Below are positions 1-48,001 of a stretch of DNA of 64,000 bases, one piece after another. Positions within the stretch are counted from its first letter, which is position 1. Each line of letters starts with the position of its first letter. A program made the translations under genes and the position numbers. The notes beneath the pieces are model-generated. The model saw only the letters and a program-made list of their open reading frames with translations. It did not search any database and had not been told where the DNA came from. Source of the DNA: Physcomitrium patens (taxonomy: Eukaryota; Streptophyta; Bryopsida; Funariales; Funariaceae); the NCBI RefSeq assembly GCF_000002425.4, contig NC_037256.1:9421949-9485948 (forward strand). Direction: 5' to 3'.

Positions 1-863
1 CGAAGAAGTAGAAGTATAACTGGAGAGAAGTCTTTGATGAAGATCTAATAGTAGTTGATAAATTCCAAAAAGCATTGGACATCTCTTAACGTTTTTGGGA
101 TCTTCCAATCTATAATAGTTTGAACTTTTTTAGAATCTATCATAATTCTATCATTTGAAATGATGTAATCTAAGAAATTGACTTGAGTAGTGTGGAATAC
201 ATACTTTTCTATCTTGGCATAGAATCCCGCATCTCTTAATTTTTGTAACACATGACGAACATGAAGTTCATGTTCTTTTGGATTCTTAGAATAGATCAAG
301 ATGTCGTCTAGATAACAAACCACAAAAGTATCCAAAAACTCTTAAAAAATATCATTCATTAAATGTTGAAAAGCTGCTGGTGCATTTATAAGTCCAAAAG
401 GCATGATGTTGTATTTAAAATGTCCATATCTAGTTCAAAATGTAGTCTTCCATTCATCTCCTTCTTTGATGTGTATTAGATTGTATGCTCCCTGACGATC
501 TATTTTTGTATAGATCTTAGCTTAATTCAGCTGATCAAGAAGTCTAGATATTAAAGATAGTAGATACCTGTTCTTGATGGTAATCTTATTGAGTCCTCGA
601 TAATCAACACGCATCCGCAATGATCCGTCTTTTTTCTTCACAAATAGAATTGGAGCTCTTGCCAAAGATTTAGAATGGCGTATGAAATTCTTGGCTAGAT
701 TTTCTTCAATATACTCCTTGAGTTCAATCAACTCATTTTGTGATAAATTGTAGATTATTTCGAATGGCGGTTGTGTTCCTTTTTGAAGGTCATTTGAGCA
801 ATCATAGGGACGATGTTTCGGGAGTGTATCTGCATTCTTTTTTTCAAATATATCTTGAAATTC
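1..863 (-). pseudogene. RT-A reverse transcriptase, broken and cut by window edge
   Basis: Two open pieces (731-522 and 335-45) carry reverse transcriptase blocks. [17 protein letters not shown] marks the fingers, and YLDDILIYSK is the catalytic YxDD box with both Asp present. The MPFGL block lies between them. Stops interrupt the frame at several sites. The window starts inside the segment joining RT to RNase H. Confidence 0.9.
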
Positions 864-1553
864 TTAATATTGGCTTGGAATGCCTCGTGGAGTCTTTGCA
901 CCATTAGAAATAGGTGTGGCATAAATAATATATGGTGATTCTTTTATAGCAACATGCAAGAAAACTTTTGCACCTATAAATACGGATTTAATTGAATTGG
1001 ACTTATGACTCTCTACTTGATTAACTACATTGTTAATTATACTTTTAGAGAAAGTAAGAGTTGGGAAAATCCAATCTATTTGAGGGTTGTATTTTTCTAA
1101 CCACAATAAACCTAAAATGATTGGATTAAAGGGAGATCTAATGATATTTAATACTACAAAGCTATTATAACCATTGATTATTACTTCTATAGAAAGGGTT
1201 TTGTGAGTAATATCTCCAGAAGACAATGAACGACCATCTATGATTTCTACATGAACAGGTTTATTTTTCTTTATTAAAGATATGCTATGTCTTTTAGTAA
1301 ATTCTTCATTCAAGAAACACACTGAGGCTCCTGAATCTAACAACTCAGAGGCTTTGTAATGTTTAAGTCCTAAAATAATATTTAATGTAAAACAAGGAGA
1401 GGGCTCTGAGAAGAGAATAAGACCTTTACTAGATGTTGTACAAGATTTCAGCCCTAGGGTCCCTATTATAGCTAGACAAACTAGTTTTTCAACATATTGT
1501 CTTCTCTCACAGCCATACTCCTCATTTTGTCGTTGCATCGTTTCTCTGGACAA
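864..1553 (-). pseudogene. RT-A pol N-terminus with aspartic protease
   Basis: An open stretch of 229 codons. The retropepsin motif LLDSGASVCFL with intact D-S-G is encoded around 1325-1345, followed by the flap and the ILGLLWLEKYNP motif near its C-terminal half, typical of chromovirus proteases. The protease would cleave the Gag-Pol polyprotein in the particle. Unlike RT-D, RT-G and RT-H, the catalytic D-S-G is kept. The frame is -1 relative to gag, so a frameshift would be needed for translation. Confidence 0.85.
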
Positions 1554-2470
1554 TGTTGAGCAGTGTGTTTTGGTTCTCTATAATATAAATATAATCCTTC
1601 TTGACAACAACGAGTCTTTTTTTGCTCAGTAAGAGCTTTAAAACGTACTACATCAATTTGTATATCCTTTACTTTTGAATGTATGTATTGAAGAGGTGTT
1701 GGTGTTGCCATTGAATTATAGTAACGTTGAGGTCCACTTGTACGGTTCTCAAATCGAAATTCAAAAAGGTGATTGTCATACTTTAGAGCAAAGTCAATTG
1801 CTTGACTCAATGTTTGAGGATGAGGTAGGTTGAGCATTAATTTTTTTACCTCATATTATTATCCGTAGAAAGATTAGCTAATAAGTACAGCATCATCCCA
1901 CTTGATATCAGTTGCTAGTTATGAAAATTATGAAACATACAATGTTATTGATCGATTGCCTTGTCATAAAATATGGATCTTATTGGTTGCAACATGAATT
2001 ATATCATGTTTTCTATGCATGGATCGAAACTCCACCAAAAAGTCTCTAGATTATCCAATATTAAATCTTGTTATTCAAAAAAAGATGAAAACCACGATAG
2101 TGTTGAACCTGAAAGAAGCGTACCAATGAATCTAACTTGTGATCGTGGAGTTGGATAGCTTTAGGGTTGAAGTTCAATTACAAGTTACACTTGATTGATA
2201 AATCCTTGAAACTTAGATTTGGTGCCATCAAACTTCTCCGGTAAGGCAATTCTTGGTTCTCTAATATTAGAAGGATGTTCCACCATAGGAAAAAAGACAT
2301 GATTTGATACAAAATATTGTAGTAGCTCCAACCATTTCCATATCTTCACTTCTTGCCAATCTTATTGCTCTTTGTCGAGATAAATTGAGTTGATGCATCA
2401 CAAGCATTAATTCCCTCAATTGCTCTTGCATTTGTGCCATTGCACTCTTCATTTCAACAAATTCTACCAT
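1481..2470 (-). pseudogene. RT-A gag (capsid/nucleocapsid), broken
   Basis: Gag forms the virus-like particle and binds the element RNA. It starts at 2470 with an acidic, Met/Gln-rich N-terminus shared with RT-D (27265). The middle is broken by stops, and an open stretch covers 1837-1481. Near its end is a decayed zinc knuckle, in which at least two of the Cys of the CCHC pattern have become Tyr. The gag frame stops at about 1481 while the pol frame is already open from 1553, a 73-base overlap in the -1 frame. The last gag codons read AAA AAC TAG, an A-rich run of the kind used for -1 ribosomal frameshifting. Confidence 0.8.
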
Positions 2471-2669
2471 GATAATACTTAGAAAAGAGAAGATGTCTAA
2501 TATCGCTCAAGACAAATAGAAGAGAGGACCTGAAAACAAAGAAAATACTAAAGACAATATTAGTTTAGAAGAAGGTAATCTGTAACTTCTAATATGCTTA
2601 TATCTTATCAAGAAAAAGAGGTAATCCACTCTTAATCAAGATTAGACAAAGCTCTGATATTGTAGGTGT

Positions 2670-2680
2670 ACTCTTGTCAA
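2670..2680 (-). promoter_or_regulatory. RT-A predicted self-priming primer binding site
   Basis: On the minus strand TTGACAAGAGT starts two bases after the end of the 5' LTR. It is the exact reverse complement of the ACTCTTGTCAA word at the predicted RNA start inside the same LTR (2868 to 2858). This is the arrangement of Tf1-type self-primed elements. A tRNA-iMet-like word, ATATCAGAGC, lies about 20 nt further in but lacks the TGG start expected of a tRNA primer site. Confidence 0.75.
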
Positions 2681-2682
2681 TC

Positions 2683-3243
2683 TGTCAAGGACCAGAACTT
2701 GATGAAAAAGCAATTCAGATAAGTGAGCCTTCACTCAAAGAAAGGTAACAAAATATAAATAAACAAGTATGTATATTGAAAGAGAAACTGGAATGGCTAT
2801 TACCAAAAGACAAGAAAACTAGAGACCCTTGAAACTAGACTGGAAGCAAGAAAGGAGTTGACAAGAGTGAAGAAGGCTTTATTCTTGGCTCTATATATAC
2901 TATCTAACTAGGAGCTATGTGGCGATGTTCTATAGGACCTCTGATAAGTGTTGACTTTATAGGACACATGCCTTGACTTACAAGGTAAGTTTTTCTACGT
3001 GTGGACCACATTGTTAGCTTGGTCTTCAAGCTAACACCATGTGTGGCACATGGCCAACTTGTTGACCACATTTCTAATCCAAAAAGTCAATTAAAGACAC
3101 TTATAAAGTCAAAGTAGCATCTATAAAGCATTTAGGAAGCTTTCATATCAAATACTATAGAATTAACTTATTCTTATCTACTTTTACTTACTTCTACTTA
3201 TTTATATATGTAATTACTAGCTTACATGAGTATGTCCATGACA
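2683..3243 (-). repeat. RT-A 5' LTR (561 bp)
   Basis: On the minus strand it begins TGTCATGGACATAC and ends CTTGACA, matching the ends of the RT-D LTRs whose borders are fixed by a target duplication. A TATA box (TATATATA, 2899 to 2892) lies 31 bp before an ACTCTTGTCAA word (2868 to 2858) that is the likely RNA start. The partner LTR is outside the window. Confidence 0.85.
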
Positions 3244-12136: not shown

Positions 12137-12212
12137 CTTTGAGGAGTGAAATCAACATTTTTAAAAAAAGTGAACAAATGTGACATGATTGAAGAAAGTT
12201 TTTTACACCTTT
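12137..12212. other. Left end of inverted-repeat spacer
   Basis: A short AT-rich piece between the inner end of the left arm and the truncated end of RT-C. No feature recognised. Confidence 0.5.
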
Positions 12213-13900
12213 CTATATTTGGGGCCACCAAGAATCTCTAGATATAAGCTCCAAAGTCTTGTTGTATCCAAAATGTACTACCACTGAAAAGTCATGCCGT
12301 GCTTGAAGAACATGTAAATGAGCTTCTCTTTTTAGAATATATAGGTACCCTTTAAAATAAAATAGGTTGTTCTTAAACTCAAACTTGGAAGTATCATGAG
12401 ACTTAGAAGAACTATTCTTAATATTATAAATAAGAAGATCAAAGGATATATTTGATTGAATTTGTTTGAAAAAAGTTGAATTAATAGTAAATGTTGATTT
12501 CACTGCTCAAAGATGAAATTGTTTTGGCTTCAATAATATTTTCTTTTGTTGATCAAAAGCTATATTTTCTTCTTTAGATACAAGATAAGAATGTCTAAAA
12601 AAGGCATTACACAAACCTTGTTGTTTTCTTGGCCAATAAGTGATATCGAACTTAAATCTTGACAAAGACATACTCCAACGAGCCTAGCAATGATTCAAAA
12701 TATATGCTGACATGAAATACTTGAGGTTCTTGTGATCCATGTATATGATGACTAAACTAGAAGCACCTTTTAGATAATGATGCCACTCTTGAAAAGAATC
12801 CAACATTGTAAGAAGTTCTTTGTCATGGATCTCATAGTTAATCTTGGTTGCTCAAAATTTCTTGGAATAGAAAGTTACTAGATGGAGCTTGTCATCTTCT
12901 CCTATTTGTGACAAAACAACATTCATAGCAAAATCTATTGCATCTGTTTTCATAAAAAGTGCCTTCAAAAAGTTCATGCGATATAAGATTGGTATAGAAA
13001 TAAATACCAATTTCAAGGCTTCAAAAGATGATTTAGCTTCTTTGCTTCAATTAAGTTTGTCTTTGCATGTAAGACATGTAAGAGGAGTTGCAACTTGAAA
13101 AAAATTCTTGATGAAGCTCCGATAGTAATTGGCAAAGCTTAAAAAGTATTGCACATCTTTTACTGTTATTAGAATCTTCCAATCTACAATACTTTGAACC
13201 TTCTTTGGATCCATCATAAGTCCTTTGTTGGAAATGATATATCCTAAGAAGTCAACTTGAGTATTATGGAATACACACTTTTCTAACTTGACGTACAATC
13301 CCACATCTCTAAGTTTTAGTAACACATGATGAACATGAATTTCATGCTCTTTTGTGTTTTTAGAATAGATTAAAATATTGTCTAAATAACAGACAAAAAA
13401 ATCATTTAGAAATTCACAAAAAATATTATTTATAAGATATTTAAAAGCAGTTGGTGTATTTGTGAGTCTAAAAGGCATGAGATTATATTCAAAGTATCCA
13501 TATCTTGTTCGAAATGCAATCTTCCATTCATCTCCTTCTTTAATGCAAACCAAGTTGTGCACTCTTTGTAGATCTATTTTTTTATAGATCTTAATTTGAT
13601 TTAGTTGATCAAAAAGTCCAGATATCAAAGATAAAGGATACCTATTCTTAATGGTAATCTTATTGAGACTTCAATAATCTATGCACATTTGCAATGATCT
13701 ATCTTTTTTCTTCACAAATAAGATAGGAGCTCTAGTAGGAGATTTTGAGTGATATATGAAATTTTTGGCGAAGTTCTTATCTATGTACTTCTAAAATTCA
13801 GCCAACTTATTTTGTGATAAATTATAGATTGGACCAAATGGTGACTGATTTCCCTCTTTAAATTCAATTGAACAATTATATAGATGATGCTTCAGGTGAA
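12213..13900 (-). pseudogene. RT-C RT, RNase H and integrase N-terminus, broken
   Basis: The open piece 13628-13047 carries RT blocks (IKEGDEWKIAFRTRYGYFEY, MPFRLTN, CYLDNILIYSK). The catalytic YxDD has become YLDN, losing its second Asp. RNase H remains lie at about 12940-12520, and the 12503-12213 piece carries the integrase zinc region (HVLQARHDF...HFGYNKTLELISRDSWWPQ). Numerous stops. Confidence 0.85.
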
Positions 13901-13928
13901 TATTTGCATTCTTCTTTTCAAAAATATC

Positions 13929-14516
13929 TTAAAAATCTTGATATAGACTTAGAATGTCACTTGAAGTCTTTCCATCATTAAAAATGGATGTGGCATAAAT
14001 AACAAAGGACGATAATTTTTTTGCAGCAAACAAAAAAGCTTTTGAACCTATAAGTATGGATTTGGTTATACTAGACTCATGGTTTTTTACAAAACTCTTA
14101 ATAGTACTATGAGGAAAGTCAAGTTTATGAAAAATCCAATCTATCAAAAGATTATACTTTTCTAACTACAATAAACCTAAAATGATTTGATTAGATAGAG
14201 ATCTAATTATATTAAAAATTATGCAACTATTATGACCATTTATTGCTACATCTATAGGAAATGTTTTATAAATAATATCTCTAAAAGATAACAAACAACC
14301 ATCTATGACTTCTACATGTATGAGTTTAGTTTTTTGTATTAACAATATTCTATGGCTTTTAACAAACTCTTCATCTAAGAAATAAGTTGAGGCTCCTGAA
14401 TCTATCAAGGCAAAGGCTTTGTGATTATTAGGTCTTAAATATACATCTATTATAAAATAAGGAGAGGATTTTGAAGAGAGGATAAGACCTTCATTTGTAT
14501 AAGATTTCAGCCACAT
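13929..14516 (-). pseudogene. RT-C protease remnant
   Basis: Open pieces 14516-14166 and 14147-13929 are in the same protein order as RT-A. LIDSGASTYFLDEEF keeps the D-S-G catalytic triplet (Gly codon at 14394-14396). A single stop near 14165 separates the pieces. Confidence 0.85.
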
Positions 14517-14579
14517 GGTCTCTATTGCAATTGGATAAATTTTTTTTTTGACATTTTTTCACCTTTGATAGTCATATTC

Positions 14580-15530
14580 CTCATTTTGTAGTAGCATCAT
14601 TTCTTTGAACAATATTGAGCAGCACGTTTAGCTTCTCCACAATATAAATGCAATCATTCTTAACGATGACGAGTCTCTTTTTATTTAGTAAGAAGTTTAA
14701 AATATACCGCATCAATTTGCATGTCTTCTACTTCTAGATATTTAGATTGAAAGGTGGTTGGTATTGGCATTGAATTGTAATAGCGTAGAGGTTTTCTTAT
14801 GCAATTCTCAGATTGAAACTCAAAAAGTTGATTATTATACTTCATAGAAAAATCAATTGCTTCACTTAATATCTAAAGACCATGTAAGTTGAGTATCAAT
14901 TTCTTTACCTCATATTGTAATTCATAGAAAAATTGGCTAATAAGGGTAGCATCATTCTACTTGAAGTCAATCGCTAATTATCAAAATGGTGAAGTATATA
15001 ATATCATTCATTGATTGTCTTGTTACAATATACAAATTTTATTAGTTGCAACACAAATTGCATCATGTTCTCCATACATGGATCAAAATTCTTTCAAAAA
15101 AGTTTCTTGATTATCCAATTTTGGATCTTGTTGTTCAAAAAAAGATGAAAACCATGATAATGTTAAGCTTGAAAGAAGTATACCAATGAATCTAACTTGT
15201 GATCCTAGTGTTGGATAGCTTTGGAATTGAAGTTCAGTCACAAATTATACTTGATTGATAAATCCTCAAAACTTGGATCTTTTGCCATTAAACTTCTCAA
15301 GTAAGGTAACTCTAATTTTCTAATACTAGAAGAATGTTCTAGTATAGGAGAAGGGATGTGATTCGGTGTAGATGTTGAAGCATCTCCAATCATGTTTGTA
15401 TCTTCACTTCTTGCTATTTTTGTTGCTCTAGGTGGTAATCAATTAAATTGATGCATCGCAAGCATCAACTCTCTCAATTGCTCTTGTATTTATGCTATTG
15501 TATTCTTCATTTTAAGAAGCACTGCCATAA
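14580..15530 (-). pseudogene. RT-C gag remnant
   Basis: Weak gag remains in the order seen in RT-A and RT-D, with many stops and no long open frame. An A-rich run at the gag end (about 14538-14552 on this strand) corresponds to the likely frameshift zone in the other copies. Confidence 0.6.
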
Positions 15531-15740
15531 CAACACTTTAGAAAAAAAAATGTCTAACAACTCTCTCAAGACAAGTAGAAGAAAGGACTTAAGAACAAAG
15601 AAGATACTAAAAAAAGTATTAGTTTAGAAGAAGATAATCCGCAACTTCTAATATGCTTATGTCTTTCAAGAAAAAGCGATAATATACTCTTAATCAAGAA
15701 ACAACAAAGCTCTAATATTATAAGTGTAATCTTGTCAATT

Positions 15741-16267
15741 TGTCAAGGACATGAATTAAAAAAATATGCATAAACATGGGAAATTTGTGTTAAAAAAAAA
15801 AGTGGCAAAATAGAAATGAAGTAGTATGTATATTCAAAAGAAACTAGAATGGCTATTGTCAAAAGACAAGGAAACTAGAGACTCTTAAATCTAGATTAGA
15901 AGCAAGGAAAGAATTGAAAAGAATAAAGAAAACTTCACTCTTGTCTCTATATATACTATCTACCTCGGATCTATGTGGTAACATTTTGTAGGACTTCCAA
16001 AAACATGTTGACTTTGCATGACATGTATCTTGACTTGCAAGGCAAGTTTTCTATATGATTGCCACATAGTTAGCTTATTCCACAAGCTATCAACATATGT
16101 CGCACATGGATAGCTTGTTGACAAAGTTTCTAACCTACCAATCAACTACAAACATATGTAAAGCCAAAATAGTGTCTAGGAAGCTTTTAGGAAGCTCTTC
16201 TAGAAAGTATTATGAAATTAATCTATTTTTACCTAATTCTAACTATCTAGGTGATGATAACAATAAG

Positions 16268-17249: not shown

Positions 17250-17402
17250 GTGTGGCTCCGTCATTGTCATCAAGCCCCGTTCACACTGTAGCCTCATGCT
17301 AGATAGAAAGAGTTCTCTGTGAGGGACTCCGTCATTGTCATCGGATCCCGTTCACACTGCAACTTCGTATTGGACGGAGAGAGTTCTTTGCAAAGCCTCC
17401 GT
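17250..17402 (-). repeat. 70-bp tandem repeat, mirrored copy
   Basis: Mirror of 11241-11393, downstream of the right UBC2 copy. It has the same two full units and partial third unit. Confidence 0.85.
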
Positions 17403-18356: not shown

Positions 18357-18362
18357 TTTATT
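18357..18362 (-). terminator. Candidate poly(A) signal for UBC2 right copy
   Basis: AATAAA on the minus strand, the mirror of 10281-10286, 500 bp past the stop codon. Confidence 0.35.
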
Positions 18363-18861
18363 TAACACTTGACACTCTTACATGTAAAATCCTTGACCCC
18401 GATTGAAAGTTGTCGCTCAGAAGTAGAACCCAAAAGTAGAGCAAAGGCAGAAAGAGTACTCGTCAGCCAGCACCATCCATAGTCTCCAGATACGGAAACT
18501 AGGTCTGACCAGATGATCACCCAGCAAATCACACTCTCCACAGCACCAACTACACATCTCTACTCCAACCCCGGGTTCCAGACCTTAACCTCAGGATGTC
18601 CCAACGTTGGAGTCACACCAGGTTTAGTCACACCAGGGACAAGAAATACTGACAACCCCAACAATACCCCTTCAGAAGTTCTTCCAAACAAAGAAGAGTA
18701 ATAGCGTGATATTTAATGGAGTCCGGAAGTTCAAGCTTGCAATCACGTAACCACTCTCTTCCATCTCTAGGTTAGACTTCCAAATCTCCCCAGTAACCGA
18801 AACTAAACTTAACTCTTCAGGTGGACAATCCAAAACCAGCAGCACTTCCAACTCCCTCCAT

Positions 18862-26512: not shown

Positions 26513-27057
26513 TTATCATAGACATACATATTTATCCGTGATAATTATTTAGATAATAAGAATAGATAGAAGTAAGTCAAAGTAGAGAAATATGGTATTA
26601 TCTTGTGGAAAGCTTCGTAGAAGCTTTACAAACGTTGCTTGCTTTTACACATATCTACAGGTGATTGATAGGTTGAAAACTTGGCCAACAAGGATGCCAC
26701 GTGTTAATATATTGACTACTTATAGTACAAGTTGGACATATGGCGCATACCTAGGAAACTTGCCTTGTAAATTAGACATGTATCCTACAAGTTGGATGCA
26801 TATTAGAGGTCTTATAGCATGTTTCCATGTATTTCTTACTTAAGTAATATATATAGAGACAAAAGTGAGGCCCTCCTCACTCTTGTCAATTCCTTTCTTG
26901 CTTTTAGTCTAGTTTCAAGAGTCTTATGTTTTCTAATCTTTGGCAATAGCCATTCCAATTCTTCCTTGAATATATATACTTTCTTCTATTTTGTCACTTT
27001 TCTTTTGATACAGATTCCACGAGTTTATGTATCTTCTTCTAGTTTGTGTCTTTGATA
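26513..27057 (+). repeat. RT-D 5' LTR (545 bp)
   Basis: Begins TATCATAG (TG changed to TA) and ends TTTGATA (CA changed to TA). TATA box at 26848-26855. The predicted RNA start word ACTCTTGTCAA is at 26879-26889, 31 bp downstream. The LTR is longer than its 3' partner mainly because of extra sequence near 27000-27040. Confidence 0.92.
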
Positions 27058-27059
27058 GA

Positions 27060-27070
27060 TTGACAAGAGT
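27060..27070 (+). promoter_or_regulatory. RT-D predicted self-priming primer binding site
   Basis: TTGACAAGAGT starts after a 2-nt gap from the LTR end. It is the exact reverse complement of ACTCTTGTCAA at 26879-26889 in the 5' LTR and at 32682-32692 in the 3' LTR. If used, minus-strand DNA would start here from the 5' end of the element's own RNA. Confidence 0.78.
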
Positions 27071-27264
27071 ATATATACAATATCAAAGCTTTGTCTTTTT
27101 TTAATTAAGAGCGGATTACCTCTTTCTCTTGATAAGGCATAAGCGTATTAGAAGTTGTAGAATACCCTCTTTTAAACTGATATTGTTTCTAGATTTTTTT
27201 ATTTTTTTGGTTCTTAAGTATTGTATTTTGTGAAAATAGACACCTTTCTTTTTATTGTGCTAGC

Positions 27265-28263
27265 ATGGCAAAGCTTGCTGAAATGAAGAGTACAATGGCT
27301 CAAATGCAAGAGCAAATGAGAGAGTTAATACTTGTAATGTATCAACTCAGTCTACCACCACAAGGAGCAACAAGATTATCAAGCAATGAAGATATAGAGA
27401 TGATTGGAGTTGCTTCAATATCTACATCATACCATACTATTGCTTCTACAATAAAATATTATTCAAGTTTCAAGGAACCAAAAATTGGATTGCGTGAGGA
27501 GTTTGATGGCACAAGATCTAAGTTTTGAGGATTTATTAATCAAGTATAACTAGTGATTGAACTACAACCTCAAAGTTATTCAACTCAAAGATCACAAGTC
27601 AAGTTTATTAGAAAAATACTTTCAAATTCTACTTTATCATGGTTTTCATCATTTCTTGAACGATGTGATCCAATATTAGATAATTTGAAAGGATTCTTAG
27701 TGGAATTTTGATCTATGTATAGAGAACATAATGCAATTCGTGTTGTAACTAAGAAGATTTGTATCTTGCAACAAGATAATTGATCAGCGATATTATGTGC
27801 TTCACAATTTTGACAATTAGCAATAGATATCAAGTAAGATGATGCAGCACTCATTAGCCAATTTTTCTACGGATTACAATATGAAATAAAGAAATTGATG
27901 CTTAATTTATCTGATCTTTAGACATTGAGTCAAGCAATTGATTTTGTTGTGAAATATAAAAATCGACTTTTTGAATTTTGATCTAAGAATTGTATAAGGA
28001 AACTTCAATGTTATTACAATTCAATGACAATTCCAACAACTTTTCAATCTAAACATTTGGAAGTAGAAGACATGGAAATTGATGCAGCACATTTTAAATC
28101 TCTTATCGAATAAGAAAAGACTCGTAGGTGTCAAGAAGGACTATATTTATATTGTAGAGAAGCTAAGCACACTACTCAATATTATCCAAAGAAACAACAC
28201 GACTACAAAATGAGGAGTATTGCTATCAAAGATGAAAATATATCAAAAAATAAATTTGTCTAG
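27265..28263 (+). pseudogene. RT-D gag, broken
   Basis: Starts with an ATG and a Met/Gln-rich N-terminus also seen in RT-A; the first stop is at 27526. A FDGTRSKF block near 27500-27525 and a decayed zinc knuckle at about 28140-28185 mark capsid and nucleocapsid. The gag frame ends at TAG 28261-28263, after A AAA AAT at about 28245, an XXXYYYZ-type heptamer. Protease is in the -1 frame relative to gag, as in RT-A. Confidence 0.8.
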
Positions 28264-28268
28264 TTACA

Positions 28269-28880
28269 ATGGAGACCATACGGCTCGAATCTTGTACAAT
28301 TCCTAATGAAGGTCCTATTCTCTCCTCAAAATCCTCTCTTTGTTTTATAATAGATGTATGTTTAGGATCTAATAATTGCAAAGCCTCTGCTTTAATAGAT
28401 TCAAGAGCCTCAGCTTGTTTTTTAGATGAAGAATTTGTTAAAAGTCATAATATACAGTTAGTACAAAAAACTAAACCTGTACACGTAGAAGTCATAGATG
28501 GTCATCTATTATCTTCTAAAGATGTTATTCATAAAATACTTCGTATAGATGTAATAATAAATAGTCATAAAAGTTGTATAATTTTTAATATAATTAAATC
28601 TCCCTCTAATCCTGTCATTTTAGGTTTATCATGGCTACAAAAGTATAATCTTGTGATAGATTGGATTTCTTATAAACTTGACTTTTTTTCAAACATCATT
28701 AAGAATTTTTCTAATCCAGTAGAAAGCCATGAGTCCAATGTAGCCAAACTTGTACTTATAGGTGCAAAAGTTTTTTTGCATGCCAAAAAAGAAAGATCAT
28801 CTTTTGTTATTTATGCCACATCTATTTCAAATAACGGAAAGATTTTAAATAAAATTCTAAGTCAATATCAAGATTTTTAA
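28269..28880 (+). pseudogene. RT-D protease region
   Basis: A 203-codon open stretch, aligned along its length with the RT-A protease. The catalytic triplet reads D-S-R (Arg codon AGA at 28404-28406) where RT-A and RT-C have D-S-G, so the retropepsin should be inactive. The ILGLSWLQKYN block is present. The open frame runs directly towards RT in the same frame. Confidence 0.88.
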
Positions 28881-30290
28881 GATATTTTTGAAAAAAAGAA
28901 TGTAGATATTTTCTCAAAGCATTGCATATATGATTGCTCAATCAATCTTAAAGAAGGAACTTAGCTGCCATTTGATTCAATCTATGGTTTATCACAAAAT
29001 GAGTTGGCTGAACTCAAGAAGTACATTGATGAAAACTTGGCTGTGAATTTTATACACCATTCAAAATTTCTTGCAAGAGCTCCTATCTTATTTCTGAAGA
29101 AAAAAGATGGATCATTGCGAATGTATGTGGATTATCGAGGACTCAACAAGATTACCATCAAGAATAGATATCCTTTGCTTTTGATATTTGGACTTCTTGA
29201 TCAATTAAATCAAGCTAAGATTTATACAAAAATAGATCTACAATGAAGATACAATTTGGTCTGTATTAAAGAAGGAGATGAATGAAAGACTGCATTTCAA
29301 ACAAGGTATGGACACTTTGAATATAATGTCATCCTTTTTGGACTCGCTAATGCACCAGCTGTTTTTCAACATCTTACGAATGATATTTTTTGTGAGTTTT
29401 TAGATGATTTTGTTGTCTTTTATTTAGACGATATTTTAATCTACTCTAAAAATATAAATAAACATAAAGTTCATGTTCATCATGTGTTACAAAAACTTAG
29501 AAATGTAGGATTATATGTTAAGATGGAAAAGTGAGTATTCCACAGTACTCAAGTAAACTTCTTAGGATACATCATTTCAAACAATGGTCTAATGATGGAT
29601 CCTAATAAAGTTCACACAATCATGTGCTGGAAGATTCCAAAAACAGTAAAAAATGTATAATATTTTTTAGAATTTATCAATAACTATTGAATCTTCATCA
29701 AGAACTTTTTCCAAGTTGCAGTGCCACTTATATGCTTAACTTGTAAAGACAAGCTCGAGTGGAGTAAAGAAGCAGAATCATCATTTGAAGCTTTGGAAAA
29801 AACTTTTATTTTTGCACCAATCTTGCATCGCATCGACTTCTCAAAAGAATTTTTTATAAAGACAGATGTATTTGACTTTGCTTTGAAAGCAGTCTTATCA
29901 CAAATAAGAATAGATAGCAAACTTCATCCAGTAGCTTTTCATTTAAGAAATTTTTTAACAATACAAATTAATTATGAAATCTACGACAAAGAACTTCTTG
30001 TAATGGTAGATTCTTTTCAAGAATGGCATCATTACATAGAAGGTACTTCAAGTCCAATCACCATATATATGGATCACAAGAATCTCGAGTATTTCATGTC
30101 AACACGTATTTTGAATTGTCGCCAAGCTCATTGGAGCATGTCTTTGTCAAGATTCGAGTTAATTATCACTTATTGGCCAAGAAAAAAACAAAGTTTATCT
30201 GATGCCCTTTCTAGACATTCTTATCTTACACCAAAAGAAGGAGAAGCAACTTTAGATCAACAAAAGATAATTTTATTGAAGCTAAAATAA
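28881..30290 (+). pseudogene. RT-D reverse transcriptase and RNase H, broken
   Basis: RT blocks run from about 28980. [20 protein letters not shown] and, near 29420, FYLDDILIYSK keep both catalytic Asp. Stops lie at 29244 and several later sites. The connection and RNase H (29721-30290) are open for 189 codons and include YMDHKNLEYFM and SDALSRHSYL; the first RNase H Asp sits in KTDVFDFAL. Parent function: copying element RNA to DNA and removing the RNA strand. Confidence 0.9.
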
Positions 30291-30389
30291 TTTCATCTTT
30301 GAGCAATGAAATCAACATTGACTATTGATTTGACTTTTTTTCAAGCAGATCTAAGTAGACCTTCTTATTCATGATATTAAAAACAATTC

Positions 30390-31300
30390 CTCTAAGTCTC
30401 AAGATACTTCTAAGTTTGAGTTTAAGAAGAACCTATTCTATTTTGAAGGATGCTTATATGTTCCAAAAAGAAAAGCACAATTATGTGCTCTTAAAGCTCA
30501 TCATAATTTCCTTGTAATAAGATATTTTGGATATAATAAGACTTTGGAGCTTATATCTAGAGATTTCTGATGGCCTCAAATATGAAAGGTTGTTAAAGAA
30601 TTTGTACAGACATGTGATATTTGTTCAAGATCAAAAACTCCTCGTCATCGACCTTATGGACTCTTCCAACTATTATCTATACTAGAACAACCATGGTCTT
30701 TTGTTTCTATGGATTTTATCATGGATCTTATAATTTCAAGTTCATATGATTCCATATTTGTGATTGTAGATTGTTTCACTAGGATGGCACATTTTGTACC
30801 ATATATAAAATCTATCACAAGTGAAGAAATAACTAAACTCTTTTTTGACAACATCTATTACTATCATAGATTACTAAGGGATATTATATGAGACAAAGGA
30901 ATATAATTTTTATCAAGATTTTGGAGAACTTTTTTCAAGATATTGAAGGTGGATATAAACTATCTTTGGCTTTGTACCATCAAATTGATGGACAAACAGA
31001 ACAGATAAATTAAGTTTTAGTGTAGTATTTGAGATGTACCATCAATTATCAATAAGATGATTGGATAATTTTTTTGCCATTGGCAAAGTTTGCTTATAAT
31101 AATTTGATACATTCTTCTACTCAACAAACATCTTTCTTTGCCAATTATGATTATCATCCATGATTTGACACTTTTGACTTTTTTAAAGTTGATAATCTTA
31201 CACCGGAAGATGTAACAAATCAATTATTAGATCTATATGTAATAATTAAGGTATAATTAAAGGAAGCTCAAGAACAACAAAAATCCAATGTAAATGTCTA
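30390..31300 (+). pseudogene. RT-D integrase, broken
   Basis: The zinc region HHCC is recognisable near 30500-30640, ending CDICSRSKTPRHRPYGL. The core follows with MDFIMDL and, after several stops, a decayed DDE core to about 31000. The integrase would join element DNA to the host chromosome. Frameshifts and stops leave no usable frame. Confidence 0.85.
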
Positions 31301-31466
31301 TCGTAAGAAAAAACCTCAATTTTATGTGGGAGATAAAGTATGATTACTTTGTCGCAATATTAAAACTATGCATACTTGTGACAAGATAGATTATCTTAGG
31401 CTTAGACCATTTTTTATTTATGAATAGATCAATCTAGTTGCTTATTGATTATACCTTCGTGAGTCT

Positions 31467-31733
31467 ATGAAAATCCATCCTATATTCCATATGTCTTTAC
31501 TTGAGCCATATGAGACAATGGATATACAAAGAAAGAAACAAATGCCACCACCTCTTATAGAAATAGACAATAATGAAGAATTTGAGGTGGAAGAAGTCTT
31601 AAATTCAAGGCATTGCTTAAATAGGTTAGAATATCTAATACATTGGTATAGATATGACATTAATGAATGTATATGGAAGCCATCAAAGAATCTAGAAAAT
31701 ACATCAGCCAAAGTTAAAGAATTTCATCAATGA
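31467..31733 (+). pseudogene. RT-D chromodomain C-terminus
   Basis: An 88-codon open piece. The integrase C-terminal block IHPIFHMSLLEPY is followed by FEVEEVLNSR, LEYLIHWYRYDINE and IWKPSKNLENT. This is the three-strand-plus-helix pattern of a chromodomain, which in chromoviruses steers integration to modified histones. The aromatic-cage Trp of the usual HWKGY motif is kept, but the following K-G is Y-R. Confidence 0.88.
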
Positions 31734-32302
31734 CATCCATCAAAACCAAAATAAAGAGTCAAAAAATTCTTTGCTATAAAGCAAAACAAGCCCCATGGAG
31801 ATTTCATTCTATCTTTTATTATCATTTTTTTGGATTTTTTAGTGCTTAAGACATGAAGAACCAACAACTAGCAGATTTAATTCAAGAGCTATCATTTGTT
31901 GAACTACTAAATGACACATTATGACTATCACAACCTTTGGGACGAAAAAATTGAGATAAAGATCCTCAAAAATGACATATTTTTCCTCGAATAGATGGCA
32001 AGATATAACACATTTGGTACCACGAGCTTGGAAGGGACTTCCAATATTTAGTGATACTTTTAGAGGTAGAAACCACTCTTAATGGTATTACTAATGTTTT
32101 ATTTGAAAGAAGTTGTAAAGGCCTCAATAATGATCAAATATCATGGTGGTCTTTTCACCCTGGTATATAACATTATCGATGGTTGAAGGGACCTATCAAC
32201 TATCTTTGAAAAGAACAAAGATCAGAGTATATGGCAAATACAATTTGATGCATCTTGAATTTCATTAATATATAATCACTACTCCTCGTGGAACTCATCC
32301 CT

Positions 32303-32316
32303 AGAAGGGGGGATAA
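32303..32316 (+). promoter_or_regulatory. RT-D polypurine tract
   Basis: AGAAGGGGGGA then TAA, directly before the 3' LTR; the normal site for plus-strand DNA priming. Confidence 0.85.
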
Positions 32317-32829
32317 TGTCACGCACATACATATTTATCTTGATAATTATCTAGATAATAAGAATAAGTAGAAGTAAGTCAAAATAGATAATTATGATAT
32401 TATCTTGTGAAAAGCTTCCTAAAAGCTTCATAGACATTGCTTTACCTTTATACATGTCTATAGGTGATTGATAAGTTGAAAACTTGGCCAACAAGGAGGC
32501 CACATGTTGACGTGTTGACTACTTGTAGTATAAGTTGGACATATGGCATATATCAAAGAAACTTTCCTTGCAAATTAGACATGTGTCTTGCAAGTTGGAC
32601 GCATATTAGAGGTCCTATAGCATGTTGCCATATATTTCTTAGTTAAGTAGTATATATAGAGGCAAGAATGAGGCCTTCATCACTCTTGTCAACTCCTTTC
32701 TTGCTTTTAGTCTAGTTTCAAGAGTCTTATGTTTTCTAATCTTTGGCAATAGCTATTCCAATTCTTCCTTGAATATACATACTTTTTTCTATTTTGTCAC
32801 TTTTCTTCTCGTAGTTTGTGTCCTTGATA
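32317..32829 (+). repeat. RT-D 3' LTR (513 bp)
   Basis: Begins TGTCACGCAC and ends CTTGATA, followed by the target duplication ACTAT. TATA box at 32651-32658 and start word ACTCTTGTCAA at 32682-32692, again 31 bp apart. Confidence 0.92.
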
Positions 32830-39580: not shown

Positions 39581-40103
39581 TGTCAAGGACATATATATTT
39601 ATTTTAATATTTACTTATATGATTAAATAGAAGTAAATAAAAATAAATTTATTTTATAATATTTATTAGAAAAGCTTTTTAGAAGTTTCATAGATGTTGA
39701 TTTAACTTTATATGTATTTGTAGTTGATTGATAGATTAGAAACTTGATCATCAAATTAATCATGTGTTGGTAGTTTGTAGAATAAGGTGATTATATAGTA
39801 CTCATATAGAAAACTTGCTTTGCAAGTTAAGATACGTATCTTGCAAAGTCAATATATTTTAGAGGTCCTAATGGATATTTCCATGTAGCTTCTAATTAAA
39901 AATTTATATGGAAATAAGAGTGAAGCCTTCTTTACTCTTGTCAATACTTTTCTAGTCTAAACTTGTTTTAAGACTAGTCTTCTTATCTTTGGAAATAGCC
40001 ATTCTAGCTTAATACTATATTATCTTTGAATAATTTTTTAGTCTTTTTGAGTGATATAATAGTGTATTGAGATTTTTTTTCTTTGAGATTCATTTCTTTG
40101 ACA
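39581..40103 (+). repeat. RT-F 5' LTR (523 bp)
   Basis: Begins TGTCAAGGACAT and ends TTTGACA. Start word ACTCTTGTCAA is intact at 39934-39944. After a 2-nt gap the primer-site word at 40106-40116 is TTGATAAGAGT, one C-to-T change from the exact complement. Confidence 0.82.
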
Positions 40104-40599
40104 ATTTGATAAGAGTCCTAACTTATTGTTGTCATCTTATCTTAGAAGTGAATGGATTATCCTACTTCTATTTTTTTATTTTAAAGATTGTAGATTTTTT
40201 ACCTTTAAACAAACTATTTAGTTATCTAATACTAATTTTTCTCTAAAAAAGAGAAAATTATCTCTCTTTGTTAAAATTTTCATTTGATATTAAAATTTGT
40301 AGATTAATCTCCTCTAATTTGACTTGTGGATTTGTCAAGTTGTTTGAAATAAAAGAAAAAATTATAGAAGTTATCCTTGATAGAAATGAAAATAGATTTA
40401 TAATTATTATAAATCTTTATAAATTTTTTAACATTCTTAGGATGAAAATTTCATGCATCACTAGTGCCAATTAAAAAAATATTAATCCTATGCTTATACA
40501 AGAGATTTAGAATTTACATAAAAAAATCATGCAATTATAAAAAACAAGTAGATCAACCTCACAACCAAATACAAGAAGTTTTACTTTTATAAGTAAAAT

Positions 40600-42080: not shown

Positions 42081-42085
42081 GCATA
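42081..42085 (+). repeat. Target-site duplication of RT-G, left (GCATA)
   Basis: GCATA precedes the 5' LTR and recurs at 47997-48001. Confidence 0.93.
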
Positions 42086-42103
42086 TGTTAGGGACATAGT
42101 CCT

Positions 42104-42171
42104 TAGAACCTTCTAGAGACAAGTTTCTAGAACCTTCTAGAAGCAAGTCTCTAGAACCTTCTAGAAGCTTC
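42104..42171 (+). promoter_or_regulatory. Heat-shock-element array in RT-G LTR
   Basis: Two perfect four-unit arrays of alternating TTC and GAA at 5-bp steps, at 42125-42142 and 42154-42171 (GAACCTTCTAGAAGCTTC), and a two-unit element at 42106-42113. They lie in near-identical tandem units starting at 42104, 42128 and 42152, about 40-110 bp upstream of the TATA box. This is the binding pattern of heat shock factors. The 3' LTR has the same array at 47719-47786. Confidence 0.8.
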
Positions 42172-42212
42172 CTAGTTGGTAGAAGTTGCTTGAAAAGCTT
42201 CCTAAATAGGAG

Positions 42213-42255
42213 TATATATTGGAATCGAGGCTGAAGAGTTCTTCAGTCTCAACAA
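42213..42255 (+). promoter_or_regulatory. RT-G core promoter: TATA box and predicted RNA start/self-primer
   Basis: TATATATT at 42213, then AGTCTC at 42245, a 32-bp spacing typical of plant TATA promoters. The 11 bases from 42245 would form the 5' end of the RNA and, in the undecayed 3' LTR form (47860-47870), are the exact reverse complement of 42384-42394. Confidence 0.75.
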
Positions 42256-42383
42256 CACATCTCTTGGAGCTCTAGTTCACCTCTCTGGTGTTGTTCTTGT
42301 ATTCATCTGATTAATCTAGTTCTTGCCAATTCTTCTTGAACTTCTTGGTAGATATCAAGTCTGTATTCTGTGTTCGTGACAGT

Positions 42384-42394
42384 TTGTCGAGACT
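42384..42394 (+). promoter_or_regulatory. RT-G predicted self-priming primer binding site
   Basis: TTGTCGAGACT starts after a 2-nt gap from the LTR end. It pairs over all 11 bases with AGTCTCGACAA of the 3' LTR start word. It differs from the RT-D site at three positions, each matched by a change in the start word. A tRNA-iMet-like ATATCAGAGC at about 42409-42418 lacks the TGG end and lies far from the LTR. Confidence 0.8.
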
Positions 42395-42473
42395 TCACTC
42401 ACCTCAGATATCAGAGCTAGTTTCTTCTTTGTTAGAGTGTGGATTATCTCTCTGCTTAGAAGTATACTAGCAC

Positions 42474-42618
42474 TTTAGAGGTTGCGGATTATCCTCCTCT
42501 AAACTGATACTTCTTTTGTTACAATATTGGAGTCTTATTCTTCTTGGAGAGAGTGGATTACCCCTTTTTTTGAAGCTCTTAAGGTATTTTAGAGGTTGCG
42601 GAGTACCCTCCTCTAAAC
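42474..42618 (+). other. RT-G leader with two similar hairpins
   Basis: TTTAGAGG...CCTCTAAA can form an 8-bp stem with a 14-nt loop at 42474-42503, and nearly the same hairpin recurs at 42588-42618, as part of a direct repeat about 114 bp apart. A similar inverted repeat with GGATTA in its loop is present in the leaders of RT-A and RT-C. A role in RNA packaging or translation is possible but inferred. Confidence 0.6.
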
Positions 42619-42661
42619 CAATATTGTCTTCTTGTAGAGTCATTTCTGTCCTTCTCTTAGA

Positions 42662-43627
42662 ATGGTCGGGGGCCAAGACATTAGTATGACAGAAAGTTCA
42701 AAGTCCAAGTTAGATGCTATCATGAATACCCTCGCTACATTATCGCAAAGAACTACAGAGATTGAAGAAGTCGTGGCAAGGCTTCATAATGATGGAGCAT
42801 CTGGGATGGCACAATCTAGGTTGCACCAGCCTCAAACTTCTACACTTGGAGAAGCAACTTTACCTCAGGTTCGACAAGCACCGCTGGTTCTACAACATAA
42901 GGAACCCCAAGTTAGCCTTTCGGACAAGTTTGATGGTACGCGTTCCAAGTTTCGAGGATTCGTCAACCAAATCAGGTTAATAACAGCCTTACAACCCGAA
43001 CGCTATCCAACGGAGGAGTCACGTGTTGGGCTTATTGGAACCTTACTTACAAGATAAGCTCTATCATGGTTTGCTCCTTTGTTTGAGAAACGATCGTCCA
43101 TACTAAATAACTTTGAAACCTTTTTGGAGGCATTTGCGGAAGCATTTGGTGAACACGACAAGGTTTGATGGGCTACAACAAAGATCCGGTCACTACGACA
43201 AGGGATGCGTTCTACATCAGTCTATGCATCGGACTTCAGGCAATTAGCATGTGACATCAATTGGGACGAAGAAGCGTTGATGAGTCAATTCTATTGGGGT
43301 TTAAGGGACGATGTGAAGGATTTGCTGTTAACTCTTCTTGATCCATAAACGCTCAACGAAGCTATTAGCCAAGCTATGAAGTGCGATAATCACCTATTCC
43401 AACGTCGCCAAGACCAATGTTCAAGACAACATATGATTCGTCACACCCCAACTATGTTGATAAGCAGCATGAATTCTTATTCAGAGGTAGAAGACATGCA
43501 AATTGATGCAGTACGTGTCAAATCTCTTACTCTAGAAGAAAAAAAGCGGCGTATGGAGGAAGGTCTATGCTTATATTGCGGTGAAGAAGGCCACAAAGTT
43601 AGAAACTACCCCAAGAAGCAAAATTGA
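42662..43627 (+). pseudogene. RT-G gag, nearly complete
   Basis: The capsid part includes KFDGTRSKFRGFVNQIRL near residue 90. Stops at 43055 and two later sites are single-base changes. The zinc knuckle at 43568-43609 reads C-x2-C-x4-H, with the last Cys changed to Tyr (TAC). Protease lies in the -1 frame relative to gag. Gag would coat and package the element RNA. Confidence 0.88.
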
Positions 43628-43692
43628 TGTATTATCAAGACTAGGGGCGCGTTTATTCAGGAAAACGAGGATGCCCAGCCACAATAGGAACC

Positions 43693-44424
43693 GTGCGGCT
43701 GGACAGTGAAATATCGCAACAACAACCAAGTTCCTTTCTTTCCGCTCAACCTGGCCTTTGTTTTACAATCCTTTTGCTTATTGGCCCTCAAAAACTGAGA
43801 ACCTTAGCATTATTAGATTCAAGAGCATCTGCTTGTTTTTTAGACAAAGAATTTGCAAAGCGTCATAAGATCCCTTTAGTACAAAAATCCCAACCTGTTC
43901 ACGTTGAGGTCATAGATGGACGACCTTTATTGTTTGGTAGTGTCACCCATGAATCAGAACCTATAGAAGTGACGTTTAAGGACCATAGTAGTCATATTAT
44001 TTTCAATATTATTAGAACTCTATCAAATCCTGTTATTCTTGGTCTTTCCTGGTTGGAAAAGCATAACCCATCCATAGATTGGAAGTTGCGGAAGATGACC
44101 TTTCCCACAAAACCACCCAAGAGCAAGCCTAGTAGAAAACCCCGAATAGAGAAATCCTTATTTATTGGAGCAAGAACGTTTATAAGATTGTCTAAGGGAG
44201 GCACACTGTTTATTATTTATGCGGTTCCAACTACCGGAGAGAAGATCTTGACAACAAGTATATCGGAGCAATATAAGAATTTTAAAGACGTGTTTCAAAA
44301 GAAAAATGCCGACATGCTACCGGAACACAGACCATATGATTGCGCCATAGACTTACAGGAAGGAGCACAACCGCCTTTTGGCCCAATCTACAATCTATCG
44401 CAGATAGAGTTGGCGGAGTTGTAG
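43693..44424 (+). pseudogene. RT-G protease and start of RT
   Basis: An open stretch of 243 codons. The catalytic triplet is D-S-R at 43816-43824 instead of D-S-G, a single G-to-A change. VILGLSWLEKHNP and a linker to RT (DCAIDLQEGAQPPFGPIY) follow. A TAG at 44422 replaces what is probably a Gln codon, and the RT frame continues beyond it. Confidence 0.9.
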
Positions 44425-45668
44425 AAGTACATCGACGAGAATCTAGCCAAGAACTTCATCCGTCATTCAAAATCGTTAGCTGGAGCACCCATCTTATTTG
44501 TGAAGAAGAAAGATGGCTCGTTGCGGATGTGCGTGGACTATCGAGGCCTCAACAAGGTAACAAAGAAGAATCGTTACCCGTTACTCTTGATTTCTGGTCT
44601 CTTAGAACAACTTGGACGTGCAAGGATCTTTACAAAAATTGATCTAAGGGGAGCTTACAACCTCGTACGAATTAAGAAAGGAGATGAGTGGAAGACAGCG
44701 TTCCGTACAAGATATGGCCATTTTGAATATAATGTCATAACCTTTGGTCTTACCAATGCTCTAGCGGTCTTTCAACATATGATGAATGATATTTTTTGAG
44801 AGTACCTTGACGATTTTGTTGTCATCTATTTGGATGATATTTTGATATTCTCCAAAAATGAGGAAGAGCATGAAAAATATGTTCGTTTGGTATTGGAGAA
44901 ACTACGCGAGCGAGGACTATATGCCAAGTTGGAGAAGTGTTTATTTCACCAAATAGAGATGGAGTTTTTGGGATTCGTTGCGACTACGAAACGCTTGAAG
45001 ATGGATCCCAAGAAAGTGGAAGCAATCGTGTCTTGGGAGGTTTCGAAGACGGTTAGAGATGTACAATGCTTTCTTGGTTTTGCCAACTTCTATCGGATCT
45101 TTATCAAGAATTACTTTCAAGTTGCTGCTCCTCTCACTCGGTTGACATGCAAGGATAAGCTAGAATGGGGACCTCTAGCAGAGAAGGCATTTCAAAACCT
45201 GAAGACCGCATTTACTACGGCTCCAATCTTCGTACATCCAAACTTTACAAAGGCCTTCTATTTAGAAACTGATGCTTCGGATTTTACTTTGGGAGCTGTA
45301 CTTTCACAAATGGGAGAAGACAAGAAGCTCCATCCGGTTGCATTCTATTCTCAAAAGTTCTTTGTTGCTAAAATCAATTATGAGATCCACGATAAGGAAC
45401 TTCTTGCTATAGTGGATTCTTTCCAAGAATGGCGTCACTTTCTTGAAGGAGCTGCACATCTAGTGACCGTATACACAGATCACAAGAATTTGGAGTATTT
45501 CATGTCGGTTCGAGTTCTAAATCGACTTCGAGCTTGATGGAGTATGTTGCTATCTAGGTTCGATTTTATTATCACTTATCGACCTGAAAAGCAGCAAGGA
45601 CTATCTGATGCCTTATCGAGGAGATCGTATCTTGTACCAAAGGCTGGAGAAGCAGCGTTTGATCAATA
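44425..45668 (+). pseudogene. RT-G reverse transcriptase and RNase H
   Basis: The RT frame is broken only by single stops (about 44800 and 45535). [20 protein letters not shown], then YLDDILIFSKN with the catalytic Asp codons at 44833-44838, then FLGFANFYR. RNase H follows with ETDASDFTLGAVLSQ, KELLAIVD, YTDHKNLEYFM and SDALSRRS, which carry the four acidic residues. This is the best preserved copy of these domains in the window. Confidence 0.93.
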
Positions 45669-46655
45669 ATGTACGACGTTGTTGAAGCCAGAGCAATTTC
45701 AGCTTGCGCTATTATTATGCCAATTGATGTTGACTTCCTGAATCAGGTACTTGTCGTAACCATTGAAGATTCAGTAGCCATTGATATTAAGCAGCGTGCC
45801 AACGACGACAAGTTCAAGGTGGAGGGAGATCTTTTATATTTTGAAGAGCGGTTATATATCCCAAAGGGACCAGCACGACTCCGAGTTCTTCAATCTCGCC
45901 ACAATTTTCCAGCTGCGAGACATTTTAGATTCAACAAGACCTTGGAGTTTATTTCTCGAGATTTTTGGTGGCTCCAAATGTGGAAGGATGTGAAAGATTT
46001 TGTCCTCTCCTGCGACATTTGTTCAAGATCCAAGAATCCTCGGCATCGCCCTTATGGACTCCTACAACCATTGTCGATTTCACGTCGACCATGGTCTTCA
46101 ATTTCCATGGACTTCATCACGGACATGCCATCATCAAATTCATTTGAAAGCATCTTTGTCCTGGTAGATCGGCTTACAAAAATGGTGCACTTTATCCCTT
46201 GCAAGAAGACATCGTCCAATGAAGTCACAGCAAGGCTCTTTCTCAATAATGTGTATCGATATCATGGACTACCAAATGATATCATATCAGATCGAGGAAC
46301 CCAATTAGTATCAAAGTTTTGGAGATCTCTCTTTGAGATACTGAAGGTGGATATCAAGCTTTCTTCAGCTTTTCATCCTCAAACTGACGGTCAAACGGAA
46401 TGGGTGAACCAAGTCTTGGAACAATACTTACGATGCAGCATCAACTATCAGCAAGATGATTGGACCACATATCTGCCGCTAGCCGAGTTTGCATATAACA
46501 ACACCCTCCATGCGTCGACTCAATACACACCATTCTTTTTCAACTATGGGTATCATCCAAAGCTTGATTTATTGAGTCCATCAACAAATAACAATCCAGC
46601 AGCTGAAGGATTTGCGAAACAACTATCAGAGCTTCAAAATATGTTGAAGTTTTAA
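45669..46655 (+). pseudogene. RT-G integrase, largely open
   Basis: A 328-codon open stretch. The zinc region has H-H-C-C (RHNF...RHFRFNKTLEF...CDICSRS). The core shows all three catalytic acids in MDFITDMP, SDRGTQLVSKFW and GQTEWVNQVLEQYLR. The frame is shifted relative to RNase H, so a frameshift lies near 45700. A stop at 46653 separates it from the C-terminal part. Confidence 0.93.
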
Positions 46656-47165
46656 TTACAATCCGCTCAAGAATCCTACAAGGCGTCTGTAGATAGATTT
46701 CGGAATCAAGCACCTATTTTCAAAATTGGAGATAAAGCATGGCTTCTTTGACGGAATATCAAGACCAAGCGACCATGTGATAAGTTGGACTATCGAAGAT
46801 TGGGACCATTTATCATCCAAAAGCAAATCAATCCAGTGGCGTACCGTCTGGAATTACCAGCTTCTATGAAGGTACATCCAGTCTTTCATGTTTCTTTGTT
46901 GGAGCCTTATCAAGAGTCATCTTTTCCTAGAAGAGTGCAATGTCCGCCACCTAGTATTGAGATCGAGAACCACGAGGAATACGAGGTTGAAAAGGTGCTG
47001 GATTCTTGACGAAGTTGGGGCAAGTTGGAGTATCTTGTTCATTGGTGCGGCTACGACATTAATGAGCGAATGTGGGAGCCAGCTGAAAATCTCACCAATG
47101 CGTCATAAAAGATATAGGAGTTTCATCAACAATATCCTCATAAACCTAAGCCGGTTCGACAATAG
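46656..47165 (+). pseudogene. RT-G integrase C-terminus and chromodomain
   Basis: [19 protein letters not shown] and [14 protein letters not shown] form the integrase C-terminal fold. It is followed by [11 protein letters not shown], a stop at 47006, then GKLEYLVHWCGYDINER and MWEPAENLTNAS, a clear chromodomain with the HW-x-GY core. Four stops break it. Confidence 0.9.
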
Positions 47166-47686: not shown

Positions 47687-47700
47687 AAAGGAAGGGGTGA
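47687..47700 (+). promoter_or_regulatory. RT-G polypurine tract
   Basis: AAAGGAAGGGGTGA directly before the TG of the 3' LTR; primes the plus strand. Confidence 0.88.
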
Positions 47701-47996
47701 TGTTAGGGACATAGTCCTTAGAACCTTCTAGAGACAAGTTTCTAGAACCTTCTAGAAGCAAGTCTCTGGAACCTTCTAGAAGCTTCCTAGTTGGTAGAAG
47801 TTGCTTGAGAAGCTTCCTAAATAGAAGTATATATTGGAATCGAGGCTGAAGAGTTCTTCAGTCTCGACAACACATCTCTTGGAGCTCTAGCTCACCTCTC
47901 TGGTGTTGTTCTTGTATTCATCTGATTAATCTAGTTCTTGCCAATTCTTCTTGAACTTCTCAGTAGATATCAAGTCTGTATTCTGTGTCCGTGATA
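47701..47996 (+). repeat. RT-G 3' LTR (296 bp)
   Basis: Same length as the 5' LTR and collinear with it (offset 5615). Nine differences, all transitions. Ends GTGATA (CA changed to TA). Retains the undamaged start word AGTCTCGACAA at 47860-47870. Confidence 0.97.
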
Positions 47997-48001
47997 GCAT
48001 A
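47997..48001 (+). repeat. Target-site duplication of RT-G, right (GCATA)
   Basis: Identical to 42081-42085. Confidence 0.93.

Follow-up and report, generated by a model that had tools for sequence, protein, structure and literature searches.

Two adjacent retrotransposon families of Physcomitrium patens with the layout of Tf1-type self-priming

The locus and its elements

The window analysed here is a 64,000-nucleotide stretch of the genome of the moss Physcomitrium patens (C4:9421949-9485948). It holds an LTR retrotransposon, element A, and four further related copies, elements B-E, which form a family distinct from A (Table 1). The limits of the element A LTRs were settled because the target duplication GCATA flanks both ends, and the LTR pair had 9 differences, all of them transitions (K2P 0.031). 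Pfam matches in element A followed the order aspartyl protease, reverse transcriptase (RT), RNase H and integrase, and this order, together with the LTRs, the target duplication and the polypurine tract, marks a Ty3/gypsy element. Between the A LTRs and elements B-E the best match, to D, covered 109 bp at 66%.

We also observed several features around these elements. The U3 of element A (42104-42195) consisted of repeated, partly inverted TCTAGAACCTTCTAGAAGC-like units. In its leader, 9 nt of ATATCAGAGC at 42408-42417 resembled the plant tRNA-Met primer site, and a 76-nt segment bearing a predicted hairpin (P3, below) was present twice (42434-42509 and 42548-42623, 72% alike). Another AT-rich pol fragment, related to B and without recognised LTRs, lay at 48718-50866. 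An inverted repeat (4897-12136 and 16507-23746) had 7240-bp arms that were 99.88% identical, with G+C up to about 0.5 within an otherwise AT-rich window, and a 4.4-kb spacer holding element C. The families of 35 scanned ORFs, when pooled, were mostly retroelement.

Table 1. Coordinates of the retrotransposon features in the window
Feature	Position	Strand	Remarks
Element D (B family, 5' part, approximate limits)	18..3180	-	Word 2868-2858 versus site 2680-2670, 11/11 paired
Element C (B family, approximate limits)	12171..16241	-	Word 15924-15914 versus site 15738-15728, decayed, 9/11
Element B (second family)	26514..32829	+	LTRs 26514-27057 and 32317-32829; limits from target duplication ACTAT
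Element B words versus site	26879-26889, 32682-32692; site 27060-27070	+	11/11 paired
Element E (B family, LTR and site only)	39581..40116	+	LTR 39581-40103
Element E word versus site	39934-39944; site 40106-40116	+	10 Watson-Crick pairs and one G-U
Element A left target-site duplication, GCATA	42081..42085	+	Fixes 5' LTR limit
Element A 5' LTR, TG..CA, 296 bp	42086..42381	+	
Element A TATA box, TATATAT	42213..42219	+	32 bp before self-primer word
Element A self-primer word, 5' LTR, AGTCTCAACAA	42245..42255	+	Predicted RNA 5' end
Element A self-primer binding site (putative), TTGTCGAGACT	42384..42394	+	2 nt past 5' LTR
Element A leader three-way junction (predicted)	42407..42510	+	P1 TATCAG/CTGATA, P2 GCTAG/CTAGC, P3 TTAGAGG/CCTCTAA
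Element A gag-pol region	42662..46655	+	Several open pieces, broken by stops and frame changes
Element A gag-like piece	42662-43057	+	Without own Pfam match; PF03732 in relatives
Element A zinc-knuckle-like piece, degraded	43376-43627	+	By eye; without Pfam match
Element A protease	43693-44424	+	
Element A RT/RNase H	44425-45537	+	Stop at 44797-44799
Element A integrase	45669-46655	+	
Element A integrase C-terminal part and chromodomain	46752..47105	+	One in-frame stop; cage read by eye
Element A polypurine tract, AAAGGAAGGGG	47687..47697	+	Adjoins 3' LTR; by eye
Element A 3' LTR, 296 bp	47701..47996	+	
Element A self-primer word, 3' LTR, AGTCTCGACAA	47860..47870	+	Exact complement of 42384-42394
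Element A right target-site duplication, GCATA	47997..48001	+	Fixes 3' LTR limit

The chromodomains helped to place the elements further. The cage residues were Y, W and Y in A, with one stop inside, and F, W and Y in B, where a Pfam Chromo match was also found. The A chromodomain thus has the aromatic cage (Y24, W45, Y48) of the Tcn1 type as defined in PMC3350952, which reports this type in plants mainly from Tcn1-like elements of non-seed plants, and also from green-algal Chlamyvir and a Selaginella Galahad element. The cage frequencies given by Neumann et al. 2019 (PMC6317226) are 95% among Tcn1 elements, 59% among Chlamyvir and 56% among Galadriel; since it also occurs in Chlamyvir and Galadriel, the trait alone is no proof of the Tcn1 clade. 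A search with the integrase gave 7457 matches; the 120 listed included no named plant chromovirus protein, and an organism or genome was named in three of them: a frog, a lizard and Orpsp. The last label presumably stands for a rumen fungus, and the presence of the three among the listed matches fits the Tf1/Sushi side. A scan of IMG/VR with the A integrase revealed no relative. The AT-richness of the window also brought up RIP in a fungal host, which was put aside: the substrate index was 1.16-1.55 and the product index 0.70-1.02 across sixteen 4-kb blocks, CpG observed/expected was <0.5 in 10/16 of them, and by the RIP index thresholds used these values were read as methylated, plant-like DNA.

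Pairing of word and site in two families

In element A, AGTCTCGACAA was matched at 47860-47870 on the forward strand and at 42384-42394 on the reverse strand, and with one mismatch by AGTCTCAACAA in the 5' LTR. The latter word carries one later G-to-A relative to the 3' LTR copy, at a CpG. The pairing was exactly 11 nt long, with the adjoining letters unpaired on both sides, and the spacer between the 5' LTR and the site was GT. On re-reading the sequence we found the word coordinates, the exact complement, the 2-nt spacer and the single later change as the earlier note had described them, and its distance of 32 bp from the TATA box was likewise borne out (TATATA starts at 42213). Its chance of 1 in 4 million holds for one position only: an 11-nt run with the 3' LTR word arose in 5/5000 dinucleotide-shuffled LTRs when an offset of 0-6 nt was allowed, and the Markov estimate at the fixed 2-nt offset was 8.6e-5. 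With the element's own 5' LTR word the longest run was 5 nt, which is at chance level (2685/5000 shuffles), so the case for A rests on the 3' LTR word. The duplex energy was -10.2 kcal/mol with the own 5' LTR word versus -16.2 kcal/mol without the mismatch. The chance level for element A taken alone is modest.

We found the same arrangement, spelled in other letters, in the second family. The word was ACTCTTGTCAA in B, D and E and ATTCTTTTCAA in C, and the sites, each 2 nt past the LTR, read TTGACAAGAGT in B and D, TTGATAAGAGT in E and TTGACAAGATT in C. Upstream of the word, TATATATAGAG stood at a distance of 31 bp in elements B, C and D, and E had a weaker TATAT at 29 bp, so that 5/5 elements (A-E) carry a TATA-like sequence 29-32 bp upstream of the word. 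Shuffled LTRs equalled the observed run in 4/5000 cases for B and 11/5000 for D, with a Markov estimate of 2.1e-4 for B at the fixed offset; the exact-run tests for C and E were at chance level. When the two families were compared, 3/11 pairs differed on both sides and still paired. In-register pairing reached 94.5% of 55 cells and was at most 45.5% when the strands were slid by 1-3 columns. Column shuffles attained this pairing level in 19/500 and the paired changes in 26/500 cases, so the six-row alignment alone is not overwhelming. RNAalifold applied to B, C and D predicted the word/site duplex unprompted. Independent support for the pairing comes solely from the difference between the two families.

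Genome copies and the structure of the leader

Copies of the elements were searched for in 470.4 Mb of the genome (101 contigs). The A query gave 3410 first-look candidates with at least 40 full-length places, and the B query 8149 with at least 40; for each, 30 loci were examined, including the window's own copies (L001 and L031). The words were in register at 30/30 A loci and 30/30 B loci, and the majority words paired exactly in both families, counts that lean on the choice of loci by similarity to queries containing both words. Pairing in the A family was exact at 20/30 loci, departed only by G-U at 3 and had one mismatch at 7, and every departure was G-to-A or C-to-T. The B family was the more diverged of the two. 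Its pairs were fully Watson-Crick at 9/30 loci (8 with the common words and 1 with a paired change), fully paired at 14/30 if G-U is allowed, and mismatched at least once at 16; the 330 cells comprised 296 Watson-Crick, 9 G-U and 25 unpaired. Collectively, the pairing is a trait of the family and not a quirk of one copy, and it has decayed neutrally afterwards.

The words and sites varied like their surroundings, with mean pairwise differences of 0.035 and 0.023 versus 0.032 in the A family and of 0.113 and 0.105 versus 0.122 in the B family, and neither family (30 loci each) gave any indication that selection had acted on the words once the copies were inserted. Nor did the partners covary from copy to copy: pairing stood at 323/330 cells in A versus a shuffled mean of 323.3, and at 305/330 versus 304.4 in B. 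Since words vary like their surroundings and partners do not covary, the copies give no independent support and were rejected as such, and this lowered our confidence in self-priming slightly, from very high to high. The expectation of the earlier note that other copies keep the pairing thus stands in that the commonest words pair exactly, and falls short in that the words are kept no better than the rest, at loci that were query-selected. As a separate observation, the A-family site variants TTGTCAAGACT and TTGTTGAGACT (L016, L022, L005 and L024) are complements of word variants found in other copies (L015; L001, L009 and L019). This match is accounted for by CpG decay; copying of a mutated primer into a new site would also fit.

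RNA folding was then considered for the 5' region. A single-sequence fold of this region of A lacked the primer duplex, and its stability was like that of shuffles (z 0.39). Flanking duplexes of the kind found in the Tf1 'pretzel' were sought in 10 comparisons over 5 elements and none was consistent, the best ones being equalled in 25/500 and 61/500 shuffles. A three-way junction in the leader was predicted in common for both families, starting 8 nt past the site in the B family and 12 nt past it in A. In the four window elements 93.3% of 104 cells paired, against at most 52.9% when slid, and 4/26 pairs changed on both sides. In 62 sequences 87.4% of 1364 cells paired and at most 50.9% when slid, in a model that was derived from 4 of the 62 and leans towards them; 67 cells were changed on both sides, and the pairs with such changes (4) were not above shuffles. 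By helix, pairing in the 62 sequences was 98.2% for P3, 86.4% for P1 and 78.8% for P2, which is low because several pairs on its loop side no longer form in the A family. This predicted three-way junction behind the site is possibly new, and may act as a docking or packaging element used by reverse transcriptase or Gag.

Probable self-priming, its alternatives and its meaning

We regard it as very probable, from the sequences and by analogy, that A and B-E are Ty3/gypsy elements of the Tcn1 / Tf1-Sushi kind, with a chromodomain in A and B, that start their own reverse transcription. Transcription of A would begin at the C-A step 32 bp past the TATA box, the distance from which position 42245 is predicted. 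The RNA of A would then loop round so that its first 11 nt pair with the complementary site, which lies 2 nt past the 5' LTR. A cut by RNase H behind nt 11 would release a 3' end from which minus-strand DNA could be extended; where the RNA starts, that it is cut and that it primes are all inferred from Tf1. In Tf1 the cut that frees the primer falls between bases 11 and 12 (PMC7175516). With such a cut the strong-stop product of element A would be about 128 nt of DNA and 11 nt of RNA, and the strong-stop of about 139 nt put forward in the earlier note holds as the total of DNA and RNA and not as the length of the DNA. The Tf1-type layout that this note proposed was supported, chiefly by the other family, in which a different word takes the corresponding position, and the layout here agrees with Tf1 in both the length of 11 and the placement.

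Three alternatives were weighed against self-priming. A tRNA might prime the elements through the ATATCAGAGC word 20-24 nt past the LTR end, which we take to resemble the initiator tRNA-Met primer site TGGTATCAGAGC. The tRNA-Met-like letters number 10/12 in A, 9 in C and D and 8 in B, yet only 7/12 in element E; by eye, the letter facing C74 is mismatched in A, B, C and D, and that facing the terminal A76 is mismatched in A, B and D and matched in C. The word can, moreover, be explained by the predicted leader junction, to which it contributes strands of P1 and P2. TGG, the complement of the tRNA CCA end, was absent from the first 50 nt past the LTR in 5/5 elements, and neither family had a tRNA-type site in that stretch. 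We consider tRNA priming highly improbable.

That the complementarity forms a hairpin, in DNA or RNA, which serves some other purpose (transcription control, packaging or dimer formation) is very unlikely as well. The paired changes between the families show that pairing was kept and are silent on its purpose, but the word lies at the expected RNA start past the TATA box, its partner stands 2 nt past the LTR end, at the place from which minus-strand DNA has to be started, and the length of 11 is the same as in Tf1 (PMC7175516). As for a chance match of 11 letters, the shuffles that equal element A alone and the missing sign of selection within families after insertion would agree with it; a second family with another word at the same offset (4/5000; 2.1e-4 expected) and three pairs that differ on both sides between families speak against it, and its probability is close to negligible.

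Neumann et al. (PMC6317226) predicted self-priming for 12% of the plant LTR elements in their survey, a share that takes in the majority of moss and club-moss Tcn1 chromoviruses, and also for the TAR copia lineage, so the statement in the earlier note that no self-primed plant chromovirus is known is out of date. Like A and B, these Tcn1-clade elements are Gypsy chromoviruses with an aromatic-cage chromodomain, no tRNA site and predicted self-priming, and by the main-text description no difference from A and B was found. A title in the reference list of that paper indicates that the primer is not removed (Tf1/Sushi-type). Self-priming was also proposed for Tcn1 of Cryptococcus (PMC7175516). 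Tf1 of Schizosaccharomyces pombe (PMC7175516, PMC10085805) shares with A an 11-nt self-primer at the RNA 5' end, predicted in A, and a site adjoining the 5' LTR. It also needs two duplexes between the LTR and site-adjacent sequence (PMC10085805), and these flanking LTR/leader duplexes were undetected in the moss elements, whereas A and B differ from the published description of Tf1 by the predicted three-way junction behind the site. Tj1 of Schizosaccharomyces japonicus (PMC4600332) is, like A, a chromodomain element related to Tf1 with a site complementary to the mRNA 5' end (predicted in A); its transposition was demonstrated, whereas element A is broken and known from sequence alone. SM-Tcn1 of Selaginella moellendorffii is likewise a Tcn1-clade element of a non-seed plant, for which, unlike for A, Novikova et al. 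2010 (PMC2864245) reported finding neither a tRNA site nor self-priming. In the same host as A, the gypsy families RLG1-RLG3 have been described, of which RLG1 bears a chromodomain and is very abundant, and transcription of RLG1 and RLG2 is documented (PMC7466625). The literature searched contained no mapped RNA start for the present elements and no paper on paired word/site changes or the leader junction, Neumann et al. being covered by their main text. Taken together, the feature is real, correctly read and, according to the literature, expected for its clade; it has good comparative support from two families, and its RNA start is a prediction.

We also considered how the words of the two families came to differ in step. 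The primer itself may serve as the template for the new primer site, such that changes in the word could reach the site in one round of copying. The joint proposal, that the leader junction replaces the LTR/leader duplexes beside the word/site duplex and that word changes spread to the site by this copying, is speculative and in our estimate rather unlikely. If true, the paired changes between the families would have been made by the copying mechanism and not by slow selection, which would also fit the finding that inserted copies give no indication of selection on their words, and the initiation structure of moss self-primed chromoviruses would be unlike the Tf1 pretzel.

The clade-level prediction of self-priming gains a clean case, with two adjacent families that have an 11-nt pairing at the same place in different letters. 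P. patens is a standard laboratory moss, which makes self-priming in a land plant directly testable. Its published 5'-end cDNA tags (DRA000400; PMC3344888) might be enough to decide where the RNA starts, with no further laboratory work.
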